This document shows positions 2,308-5,141 of a stretch of 64,000 bases of DNA, in pieces. This stretch comes from an uncultured bacterium (lineage in GTDB: Bacteria; Verrucomicrobiota; Lentisphaeria; Victivallales; UBA1829), in NCBI GenBank assembly GCA_902774245.1, contig CACYHQ010000007.1, forward strand, positions 1-64,000, in the 5' to 3' direction. Positions within the stretch are counted from its first letter, which is position 1; each line of letters starts with the position of its first letter. The notes under the pieces are model-generated. The model saw only the letters and a program-made list of their open reading frames with translations. It was not told the origin of the DNA and did no database searches. The translations under genes and the position numbers were made by a program.

Positions 2308-3294
2308 TCAGAAACGGATGATCGTGCCGTCGTCCGCGGCCTGGCGCGTCAGCAGGCACGCGCGGGTCAGGTCGAGCGACTGCCGTGTGTCAACGAGGCA
2401 GTCCCGGCGGCCCTCCAGTCCGAAGACGAAATCGGAGAAGATCTTCCGGTCGGGCACGTCGGGTTCGATGGTGCGTTGTCCGGCGGCGTCGATGAGGATG
2501 ATGTGTCCGTCGCGTACTTCGATCACGCCGGAGGTCCCGGCGACGCGGACGCGGTCGTCGCCGTGGGAGGGCGCGGCGGCGGGGCGGAGGTATTCGATGC
2601 TTGCTTCTGCGAGCACGCCGGACTTCATCGTGAAAATCGCCTGCGCGGCGATCTCCATGGAGCCGTTGCCGAAATTATCCTCGCTGGTCTGCGTGGCGGC
2701 GACGGTCGCGAATCCGCTGTCCGCAAACCACATGATCCAGTCGAGCGCGTGGCTGCCGACCCACGGGATGGTCCCGCCGTAGGTTTCGCGTTTTTTGTAG
2801 AAGTCGGGGCGGGTGCCGAGCCGGTAGGATTTCTGAGCGTAGATGAGCTTGACTTTGCCGATCACGCCGTCCGAAACGAGGTGGTGCGCGTGGTACATGG
2901 CGGGATCGTAGCGGAGCCCGACCATGGAAACGAGCTTGCTTGAGCTGGTCTTCAGCGCATTTTCGATGGCGTCGAGCGAATCGAGCGTGAGGGCGATCGG
3001 TTTTTCGCAGAAGATATGGATGTTCCGGCGGGCGGCCTCCACGCACATCTCCGCGTGCAGGTCGTACTTGCCGTCGATGCAGACGATGTCCGGCTTCTCC
3101 TCGTCCAGCAGCCTGCGCCAGTCGTCGACGACGCGAGGACTGAATCCGCATTTCGCGGCGTTTTCGAGCAGGGGCGCGGGCGAATCCTCCGGGCATCCGG
3201 GGGAGACGGCCGCAAGCTCGATCCCGGGTGTTTCATTCAGGCTCTCGAAGACATAGCAGGAATGTCCCCGCATGCCGATCATGCACAATTTCAT
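2308..3294 (-). CDS. Gfo/Idh/MocA-family oxidoreductase
   Basis: A second member of the family, 328 residues. It begins with a somewhat degenerate Rossmann start (MKLCMIGMRG) and contains NIHIFCEKPIALT, matching the EKP signature, followed by the usual C-terminal sheet domain. It is the first gene of a two-gene leftward operon and lies downstream of a good promoter (3334-3361). It diverges from the trp leader and trpB. The paired arrangement suggests that both enzymes act in one sugar-oxidising or sugar-rearranging pathway, but no substrate can be assigned from sequence alone. The glycine motif is less canonical than in its neighbour, so cofactor use is less certain. Confidence 0.87.
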   Translation of the reverse strand: MKLCMIGMRGHSCYVFESLNETPGIELAAVSPGCPEDSPAPLLENAAKCGFSPRVVDDWRRLLDEEKPDIVCIDGKYDLHAEMCVEAARRNIHIFCEKPIALTLDSLDAIENALKTSSSKLVSMVGLRYDPAMYHAHHLVSDGVIGKVKLIYAQKSYRLGTRPDFYKKRETYGGTIPWVGSHALDWIMWFADSGFATVAATQTSEDNFGNGSMEIAAQAIFTMKSGVLAEASIEYLRPAAAPSHGDDRVRVAGTSGVIEVRDGHIILIDAAGQRTIEPDVPDRKIFSDFVFGLEGRRDCLVDTRQSLDLTRACLLTRQAADDGTIIRF

Positions 3295-3404: not shown

Positions 3405-3433
3405 TTGACAAGCATGGAAAACGGTGTTATAGT
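3405..3433 (+). promoter_or_regulatory. Near-perfect sigma-70 promoter for the trp leader and trpB
   Basis: TTGACA at 3405-3410, a 17-bp spacer and TATAGT at 3428-3433. The predicted start of transcription (3438-3442) lies at or a few bases before the ATG of the leader peptide at 3443, so the leader is probably translated from a leaderless mRNA. Confidence 0.85.
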
Positions 3434-3442
3434 ATTCACATT

Positions 3443-3490
3443 ATGAAAAAGAACGCGTACATTAACTTCTTCGATTGGCGCTGGTGCTGA
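3443..3490 (+). CDS. trpL: Tryptophan leader peptide (15 aa)
   Basis: This reading frame encodes MKKNAYINFFDWRWC and stops at 3488-3490. It has two Trp codons (3476-3478 and 3482-3484) close to its end, flanking an Arg codon. It lies immediately downstream of a strong promoter, without a Shine-Dalgarno sequence, and is followed by mutually exclusive hairpins and then a tryptophan synthase gene. This is the architecture of transcription attenuation by ribosome stalling at Trp codons. The lack of a 5' untranslated region recalls the leaderless trpL of rhizobia. The role is inferred from layout; no homology search was possible. Confidence 0.82.
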   Translation: MKKNAYINFFDWRWC

Positions 3491-3588
3491 CGGTGAATCC
3501 GCCCGGACCGGGTCTTTTACGTCGTTTTTTTCATAACACAACCGAAGGTCAAGGCGGATCGAACAGAACGTTTGGTCCGCTTTTTTTT
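3477..3588 (+). promoter_or_regulatory. Trp attenuator: alternative antiterminator and terminator hairpins
   Basis: ATCCGCC (3497-3503) can pair with GGCGGAT (3553-3559), an antiterminator. The same right arm, GCGGATC (3554-3560), can instead pair with GGTCCGC (3574-3580), followed by eight T residues, a terminator. GGCG at 3477-3480, inside the Trp codons, can pair with CGCC at 3500-3503, which would hold back the antiterminator when ribosomes do not stall. Stalling at the Trp codons would therefore favour read-through into trpB. Confidence 0.8.
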
Positions 3589-3638
3589 AACCCGCGGCAG
3601 CCCGGAAAAACAGGCTGTCAAATTCAGGAGCAAGAACT

Positions 3639-5051
3639 ATGAAACACGAAACCGTAAACACCGCCGGAAACGCCGTTAAGCCGAACTGCGACCACATCCC
3701 GTACAAGATTTATCTCTCCGAGGATGAACTCCCGAAGGCGTGGTACAACGTCCGGGCCGACATGAAGAACAAGCCCGCTCCTCTGCTGAATCCGGCGACG
3801 AAACAGCCCGTGACCGCCGAGGAGCTGGGGCATGTGTTCTGCGACGAACTCGTGAAACAGGAACTCGACGATACCACGCCGCTGATCCCGATCCCGGACG
3901 AAGTGTACGATTTCTATAAGATGTACCGCCCGTCGCCGCTGGTGCGCGCATACTTCCTGGAGAAGGCGCTGAACACGCCCGCGAAGATCTATTACAAGTT
4001 CGAGGGCAACAACACGTCCGGCAGCCACAAGCTGAACTCCGCAATCGCGCAGGCTTACTACGCGAAGAAGCAGGGACTGAAGGGCGTCACGACCGAGACC
4101 GGGGCAGGGCAGTGGGGCACGGCGCTCTCCATGGCCTGCGCGTTCTTCGGCCTCGACTGCCGCGTGTACATGGTGAAATGCTCCTACGAACAGAAGCCGT
4201 TCCGCCGCGAGGTCATGCGCACCTACGGCGCGGACGTCACGCCGTCGCCCTCGGACACGACCGAGGCCGGACGCCATATCCTGAAGATGTTCCCCGGCAC
4301 CACGGGCAGCCTCGGCTGCGCGATCTCCGAGGCTGTGGAGGCTGCGGTCACGCACGAAGGCTACCGCTACGTGCTCGGCTCGGTCCTTTCGCAGGTCCTG
4401 CTCCATCAAAGCGTCATCGGCCTGGAAACGCAGACTGCGCTCCGCAAGTACGGCGTCAAGCCGGACATCATCATCGGCTGCGCGGGCGGCGGCTCCAACC
4501 TCGGCGGCCTGATCTCGCCGTTCATGGGCGAAAAGCTCCGCGGCGAGGCCGACTACCGCATCATCGCGGTCGAACCGGCGTCCTGCCCGAGCCTCACGCG
4601 CGGCAAGTTCGCGTACGATTTCTGCGATACCGGCCGGATCTGCCCGCTCGCGAAGATGTACACGCTCGGCTGCGGCTTCATTCCGTCCGCCAACCACGCA
4701 GGCGGCCTGCGCTACCACGGCATGAGCTCGATCCTGTCCCAGCTGTACCACGACGGCCTCATGGAAGCCGTTTCCGTGGAACAGACCTCCGTGTTCGCCG
4801 CCGCAAAGACGTTCGCGCGCACCGAAGGCATCCTGCCCGCGCCGGAGAGCAGCCACGCGATCCGCGCCGCCATCGACGAGGCGGAGAAATGCCGTGAGAC
4901 CGGCGAAGCGAAGACCATCGTGTTCGGGCTGACCGGCACCGGTTATTTCGACATGGTTGCGTACCAGAAGTATAACGACGGCGAGATGGACGACTGCATC
5001 CCGACCGATCTCGAACTCGAAAAGAGCTTCGCCACGCTGCCTGAGATGTGA
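3639..5051 (+). CDS. trpB: Tryptophan synthase beta chain, TrpB2 type
   Basis: A PLP enzyme of 470 residues that joins indole and serine to make tryptophan. The PLP lysine lies in NTSGSHKLNSA, the catalytic Glu in TTETGAGQWG and the phosphate-binding loop in GCAGGGSN. The longer N-terminus and the sequence style (YRPSPLVRAYFLEK, SVGYVLGSVL-like regions) fit the TrpB2 group (COG1350) rather than canonical TrpB1. No trpA or other trp gene is nearby, which is common for TrpB2, an enzyme proposed to salvage free indole. The start is supported by AGGAG eight bases upstream. Expression is probably attenuated by the Trp leader directly upstream. A weak terminator follows. Confidence 0.93.
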   Translation: MKHETVNTAGNAVKPNCDHIPYKIYLSEDELPKAWYNVRADMKNKPAPLLNPATKQPVTAEELGHVFCDELVKQELDDTTPLIPIPDEVYDFYKMYRPSPLVRAYFLEKALNTPAKIYYKFEGNNTSGSHKLNSAIAQAYYAKKQGLKGVTTETGAGQWGTALSMACAFFGLDCRVYMVKCSYEQKPFRREVMRTYGADVTPSPSDTTEAGRHILKMFPGTTGSLGCAISEAVEAAVTHEGYRYVLGSVLSQVLLHQSVIGLETQTALRKYGVKPDIIIGCAGGGSNLGGLISPFMGEKLRGEADYRIIAVEPASCPSLTRGKFAYDFCDTGRICPLAKMYTLGCGFIPSANHAGGLRYHGMSSILSQLYHDGLMEAVSVEQTSVFAAAKTFARTEGILPAPESSHAIRAAIDEAEKCRETGEAKTIVFGLTGTGYFDMVAYQKYNDGEMDDCIPTDLELEKSFATLPEM

Positions 5052-5109
5052 TCGCGCCCTGCATCGGAACGGATCATTCATCGAGCTCATCCCTGTTCAG
5101 AAAAAGAGT

Positions 5110-5141
5110 CTGCGAAGGTTCCGGCTTTCGCGGGCGTTTTG
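5110..5141 (+). terminator. Terminator after trpB
   Basis: The stem CTGCGAAGG (5110-5118) pairs with CTTTCGCGG (5125-5133), including G-T pairs, and is followed by GCGTTTTGTGTTTTC. The remaining bases up to the next promoter are AT-rich and show no gene. Confidence 0.65.

Follow-up and report, generated by a model that had tools for sequence, protein, structure and literature searches.

A ribosome-read RNA switch appears to control an indole-to-tryptophan enzyme in a rumen member of the Lentisphaeria

The trpB2 locus and its leader region

How does a bacterium control a TrpB-like enzyme whose gene stands alone? The window, i.e. the whole stretch of 64,000 nucleotides of DNA that was analysed, contains such a gene, trpB2, preceded by a region (3405-3588) that an earlier note had read as a leaderless Trp attenuator. 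As far as sequence analysis can tell, an enzyme converting indole to tryptophan appears to be turned on in this rumen bacterium of the Lentisphaeria by means of an RNA switch read by the ribosome. The features of the locus are as follows.

3405-3410, plus strand: −35 hexamer TTGACA, kept in relatives
3428-3433, plus strand: −10 hexamer TATAGT, preceded by TG, with a 17-nt spacer to the −35 hexamer
3440-3443, plus strand: transcription start predicted from the −10 spacing, giving a 5′ UTR of 0-3 nt
3443-3490, plus strand: trpL-like leader frame MKKNAYINFFDWRWC, 15 codons plus stop (sequence, pN/pS)
3441-3459, plus strand: 5′ arm of the clamp, a long-range helix including the leader start codon (fold)
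3476-3484, plus strand: regulatory codons TGG-CGC-TGG (Trp12, Arg13, Trp14), within RNA segment 1
3495-3509, plus strand: RNA segment 2, GAATCCGCC at 3495-3503 plus a GGAC/C extension to 3509 (covariation of 1:2 and 2:3)
3517-3536, plus strand: 3′ arm of the clamp, ACGTCGTTTTTTTCATAA region (fold)
3525-3536, plus strand: UUUUUUUCAUAA, part of the clamp 3′ arm
3551-3564, plus strand: RNA segment 3, AAGGCGGATCGAAC; GGTC at 3547-3550 also joins 2:3 (pairing, covariation of 2:3)
3570-3583, plus strand: RNA segment 4, GTTTGGTCCGCTTT, forming the 14-bp terminator 3:4 (pairing, covariation)
3581-3588, plus strand: U8 tract (T8) of the terminator
3626-3630, plus strand: Shine-Dalgarno sequence AGGAG of trpB2
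3639-5051, plus strand: trpB2, TrpB-like enzyme of 470 aa (TIGR01415, NF009057)
5108-5135, plus strand: terminator-like hairpin 3′ of trpB2 (consensus match only)

The assignment of the protein to TrpB2 in the earlier note was borne out by scores of 583.6 bits against TIGR01415 (cut-off 518.9) and 678.7 bits against NF009057 (cut-off 366). Its score against TIGR00263 (trpB), 151.7, is far under the cut-off and hence sets it apart from TrpB1. The gene is an orphan, as the note called it, at its locus but not genome-wide, where a full de novo pathway with TrpB1 is present. Its transcript is probably monocistronic to judge from the sequence. TrpB2 is usually seen as an enzyme of indole salvage, in which indole and serine or phosphoserine would be converted to tryptophan; indole salvage with TrpB1 and TrpB2 is described for Thermococcus in work cited in PMC11085991.

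The proposed promoter, TTGACA-17-TATAGT, is present at 3405-3433, matches 11 of 12 consensus positions, carries the TG and ranks first among four matches over 2 kb, a length in which chance would give 0.6. The gene upstream (2308-3294) is divergent, so that promoter and terminator can be assigned to no other gene. The leader ATG, said in the note to lie just past the predicted start, follows the end of the −10 hexamer after 9 nt and thus a few nucleotides beyond the expected start. No Shine-Dalgarno sequence was found ahead of the window's leader frame; one is present ahead of trpB2. The 15-codon frame with TGG-CGC-TGG near its end was recovered as described and contains two Trp codons only, with Arg between them.

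Segment 2 has two possible partners, segment 1 (protector) and segment 3 (antiterminator): GAATCCGCC is complementary to GGCGGATC (3553-3560) in the 5′ arm of the terminator hairpin (3551-3583). With its 14 bp and T8, this hairpin constitutes an intrinsic terminator ahead of the structural gene. The mutually exclusive helices and the eight T residues of the earlier note therefore stood, but its helix length of 7 bp did not apply to the terminator, and the antiterminator has a further 4 bp besides its 7 bp. Compared with dinucleotide shuffles, the leader region has the more favourable fold (z −2.7), and its 1:2 helix is weaker than that of the organism's own trpE leader. An Rfam scan of the window returned no family above the gathering threshold except one tRNA.

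Considering the promoter, the frame and its codons, three covarying alternative helices, the protein-like evolution of the frame and the recurrence of the element before Trp genes, it is highly probable that a leaderless, ribosome-mediated Trp transcription attenuator ties trpB2 expression to the charging of tRNA-Trp. Transcription would begin about 3 nt or less from the leader ATG and ribosomes would bind the 5′ AUG directly. Since segment 2 begins 5 nt past the leader stop codon and 9 nt past the last TGG, a ribosome at the stop codon is expected to cover it when Trp is ample; the 3:4 terminator would then form and, provided that termination is efficient, transcription would end before trpB2. 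With charged tRNA-Trp in short supply, the ribosome would stall at Trp12 or Trp14 and leave most of segment 2 free. Helix 2:3 would form instead of the terminator, and the expected response in vivo would be transcription of trpB2 and the incorporation of indole, with serine or phosphoserine, into Trp. In a transcript without a ribosome, 1:2 together with the clamp spanning the start codon would tip the balance towards termination.

Conservation of leader frame, helices and promoter spacing

Relatives were checked for loss of the Trp codons and helices, which the earlier note had named as evidence against its reading. Among the 12 other genomes of the genus, the leader is intact in nine (eight with a WRWC motif, G006 with WWRW), is lost in G011 and is replaced by a T-box in G008; in G001 the contig ends too early to tell. 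In close relatives from the genus and the family, the spacing between promoter and ATG before trpB2 is preserved, as are the Trp codons and the helices. Outside the Trp/Arg cluster the leader peptides differ (MEKNTFKSFFDWRWCWR, MKTYSKNIHFFFGWWRWR, MRNEIHNFSSFCWWRRW, MKTFNINNSSFFFWRWRRYAMAGVFA and others). Every leader compared has at least two Trp codons, most have Arg codons, and in most segment 2 starts about 3-12 nt past the last Trp codon.

Two loci lack a recognisable leader. In G011 (L007; G011:C10:155565), trpB2 has neither leader nor promoter and is abutted by the end of another gene. In G016 (L014:1070-1500), a hairpin with a T-run lies upstream of trpB2, with neither a recognised leader nor a T-box above threshold. 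As G011, G008 and G016, all from the same genus or family, carry trpB2 without the leader, the leader is not indispensable. Two loci from different families, L204 and L022, do not differ at all in their leader peptide, MRNEIHNFSSFCWWRRW, and hardly differ in their TrpB2 proteins; leader and gene thus seem to travel as a unit.

Within the genus, pN/pS in the leader frame is 0.17 for both the trpB2 and the trpE leaders, as against 1.94 and 0.87 in the two remaining frames of the trpB2 leader. A three-sequence trpE group, with very few changes, has a pN/pS of 1.6 and no protein-like signal. Judged by these substitutions, the leader frame is evolving as a protein under purifying selection.

Covariation, sought in an alignment of 26 leaders that was aided by a strongly conserved GGCGG, was seen in all three helices. 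In the terminator 3:4, 94.8% of cells are paired and four pairs have changes on both sides. Cells changed on both sides number 15 in 3:4 (4.9 in shuffles), 13 in the antiterminator 2:3 (4.4) and 10 in the protector 1:2 (3.7); the shuffles ignore relatedness, and the counts are supportive values, not a probability. Slid controls were all lower than observed for the three helices. Examples of compensation are segment 3 UUGACG with CGUCAA in L128 and AGCGGGU with the matching CCCGCU in L137. Conservation, covariation and the protein-like substitution pattern of the frame argue that the element is not a product of chance, and the attenuator reading of the earlier note holds in its frame, Trp codons, alternative helices and promoter-to-ATG spacing.

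The clamp beats shuffles in most trpB2 leaders of the genus and also, at a different register, in its trpE leaders. Within the genus 125 of 139 cells are paired, and L005 has G-C where an A-U pair stands otherwise. The helix is strong in the window's genus and a few others; being weak or absent in many relatives, it was left out of the general definition of the element. Since it crosses 2:3, it would be expected to oppose antitermination.

That the attenuator is leaderless was predicted from the promoter spacing. A promoter could be scored for 68 of the 72 parsed leaders, a set that contains near-copies. The gap from −10 to ATG is 9 nt in 41 of the 68 and 8-10 nt in 55; the remainder have mostly 24-38 nt, with a Shine-Dalgarno-like sequence in several. 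An attenuator with a start further upstream and an ordinary 5′ UTR would match the 24-32 nt found in L018, L137 and L143-L145, but is improbable for the window, whose frame is not preceded by a Shine-Dalgarno sequence and whose near-consensus promoter ends so close to the ATG. Moreover, the 9-nt distance is held over two families and several genera despite a varying spacer sequence.

Distribution of the element and the role of TrpB2

A covariance model built for the Trp element (R1) matched in 74 of the 137 genomes of the order. In a 388-genome sample of the phylum, no matches lay outside this order except in a single other family of the class. The 40 further R1 loci that were examined precede trpE (19), trpB2 (12), trpB or trpBA (6), DAHP synthase (2) and an XRE-type gene (1). 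Being order-wide, the element would lend itself to a new family in Rfam.

In the organism's own genome, the same element stands ahead of a complete trpEGDCFBA operon (L112:6961-7140; G000:C11:21960-22140), with the peptide MKTYANKFFYSCWWRWW and a gap of 9. The trpB2 leader may plausibly have arisen as a copy of the host's trpE leader. A third leaderless attenuator of this genome, of the Phe type with the peptide MKTISVNNSIRFYGFFWRFTA, precedes a class I DAHP synthase (L154; G000:C4:92624-92664, minus strand), and Phe-rich leaders occur before DAHP-synthase-related genes in two relatives (L216 and L238).

TnaC offers another model for a short Trp-containing peptide ahead of an indole or Trp gene, in which it is free L-Trp, not uncharged tRNA-Trp, to which the nascent peptide responds within the ribosome. 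TnaC regulation is inducing and operates by a fixed nascent-chain motif without a competing antiterminator. In our case the leaders share only Trp and Arg residues, three competing helices covary, and the element is also found on trpE operons, where induction by Trp would be senseless; a TnaC-like leader is hence very unlikely.

Hardly any weight falls on readings in which the element is a structured 5′ UTR that acts as a riboswitch or T-box or is recognised by an RNA-binding protein, although the same gene does lie behind T-boxes in Clostridia and in the congener G008. The frame is under purifying selection and its Trp codons are positioned for control by a ribosome. For the window leader, neither the Stem I with specifier nor the TGGNACCGC antiterminator of the T-box family (RF00230) was found; with no Rfam match either, a T-box was rejected there, and it is the G008 locus, L013, to which that description applies. 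Sensing of Arg (or Cys) instead of Trp, suggested by the CGC between the Trp codons and by the Arg codons of most leaders, is very unlikely, as the downstream genes are Trp-biosynthetic, the Phe-rich leaders precede DAHP synthase, and CGC/CGG Arg codons are demanded by the GGCGG side of helix 1:2.

With the tRNA-Trp attenuator as the preferred reading, the question of what it serves turns to the genomic setting of trpB2. Eight genomes without detectable trpE or trpA (G006, G017, G019, G020, G023, G025, G031 and G032) all have trpB2 with the leader; some of these assemblies are incomplete, and absence in drafts is weaker evidence than absence in complete genomes. Their gene content fits TrpB2 as an enzyme of indole salvage, and as they have kept the attenuator on trpB2, the switch apparently serves the capture of indole from neighbours. 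The genera g3 and g10, in which trpE and trpA are present, gave no TrpB2-like match, and the window's genus has both the trpE/trpA pathway and TrpB2.

Two side observations concern other attenuated genes. In L211 (G081:C173:2637-2776), a leaderless leucine-rich leader MTMMLDNFLLLLLLR with a terminator precedes a gene for an XRE-type regulator. L209, L231 and L234 have an attenuated trpB, about 52% identical to the organism's own TrpB1, with no trpA in the stretch read.

T-box and attenuator on one enzyme

The closest relatives of TrpB2 outside the class are from Clostridia, with 81-85% identity. Of 79 close homologs from beyond the class, almost all of them clostridial, at least 44 have a T-box ahead of the gene, 43 recognised by a TGGNACCGC motif at a distance of up to 450 nt and L033 by Rfam. 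The specifier loop reads GAA-UGG in the nine T-boxes inspected (eight alignments and L013). This UGG T-box on the same enzyme in Clostridia lends independent support to a response of trpB2 to tRNA-Trp, and the one enzyme appears, from sequence comparison, to answer to tRNA-Trp charging via two unrelated sensors.

In the window's genus itself, a UGG-specifier T-box replaces the attenuator before trpB2 in G008 (L013:750-1002). The L013 TrpB2 groups with Clostridia in trees that were midpoint-rooted on a sample of the closest homologs, the intended outgroup (L023-L026) being left out. The contig of G008 may be chimeric. A further gene on this contig shares 85-91% identity with its copy in most of the genus and 76% with that in G006, which makes contamination an unlikely source of the T-box copy. 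Tree placement and the genus-like gene on the contig suggest that the replacement is probably real.

The mechanism belongs to a known kind, and the lineage, the target and the sensor exchange appear to be new. The leaderless trpL (rnTrpL) of Sinorhizobium meliloti is transcribed from the leader ATG and has a short frame with Trp codons, alternative helices and a terminator; its peptide and sRNA have roles in trans (PMC7298713). The window leader is alike in these elements of design, the start at the ATG being predicted here, but rnTrpL belongs to Alphaproteobacteria and targets trpE(G) instead of trpB2, and no sequence relation is expected. Leaderless Trp leader peptides, as predicted here, also occur in Streptomyces lividans, an actinobacterium, in which TrpL1 and TrpL2 precede trpE and trpS (PMC8079986). 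Actinobacteria also have classical trp attenuators, and the 'trpB2A' of Corynebacterium diphtheriae is a trpB beside trpA (PMC1262725). The attenuator of Escherichia coli (Rfam Trp_leader) has the same segments 1-4, the same 1:2, 2:3 and 3:4 pairings and two Trp codons by an Arg; it differs in that its trpL is led by a Shine-Dalgarno sequence and controls trpEDCBA, in that Rfam misses the window element, and in the clamp, which is an addition of the window leader. The T-box of clostridial trpB2 shares the enzyme, the tRNA-Trp charging signal and the antitermination output with the attenuator, but its RNA binds the tRNA directly and needs neither leader peptide nor ribosome.

Among the open-access papers covered, no report was found of the element in Lentisphaeria, of Lentisphaerae with Trp leader peptides, of Trp attenuation on a lone TrpB2 or of an exchange between T-box and attenuator; one open-access paper naming both 'Lentisphaer' and 'leaderless' deals with antiSD types. 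The findings would bring leaderless Trp attenuation into a lineage of gut and rumen that is remote from the model phyla, and would give it indole salvage as a target in place of the anthranilate pathway. The exchange of T-box and attenuator on one enzyme also lets two answers to a single sensing problem be compared as they occur in nature.

As a tentative joint reading, TrpB2 may have kept uncharged tRNA-Trp as its input across phyla while the sensor was swapped between T-box and leaderless attenuator as the gene moved; the Trp auxotrophs of the order would retain Trp attenuation solely for salvage, and this genus would have added a clamp with which the nascent RNA blocks leaderless initiation on itself.

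A MAG filed as Bacteroidales (L098:1-240) carries a Clostridia-like trpB2 behind its own WWW leader MGFTCNNTWWWRLLQLNES and a terminator. Its TrpB2 is placed among Clostridia in the tree, and the locus is possibly a second sensor exchange.
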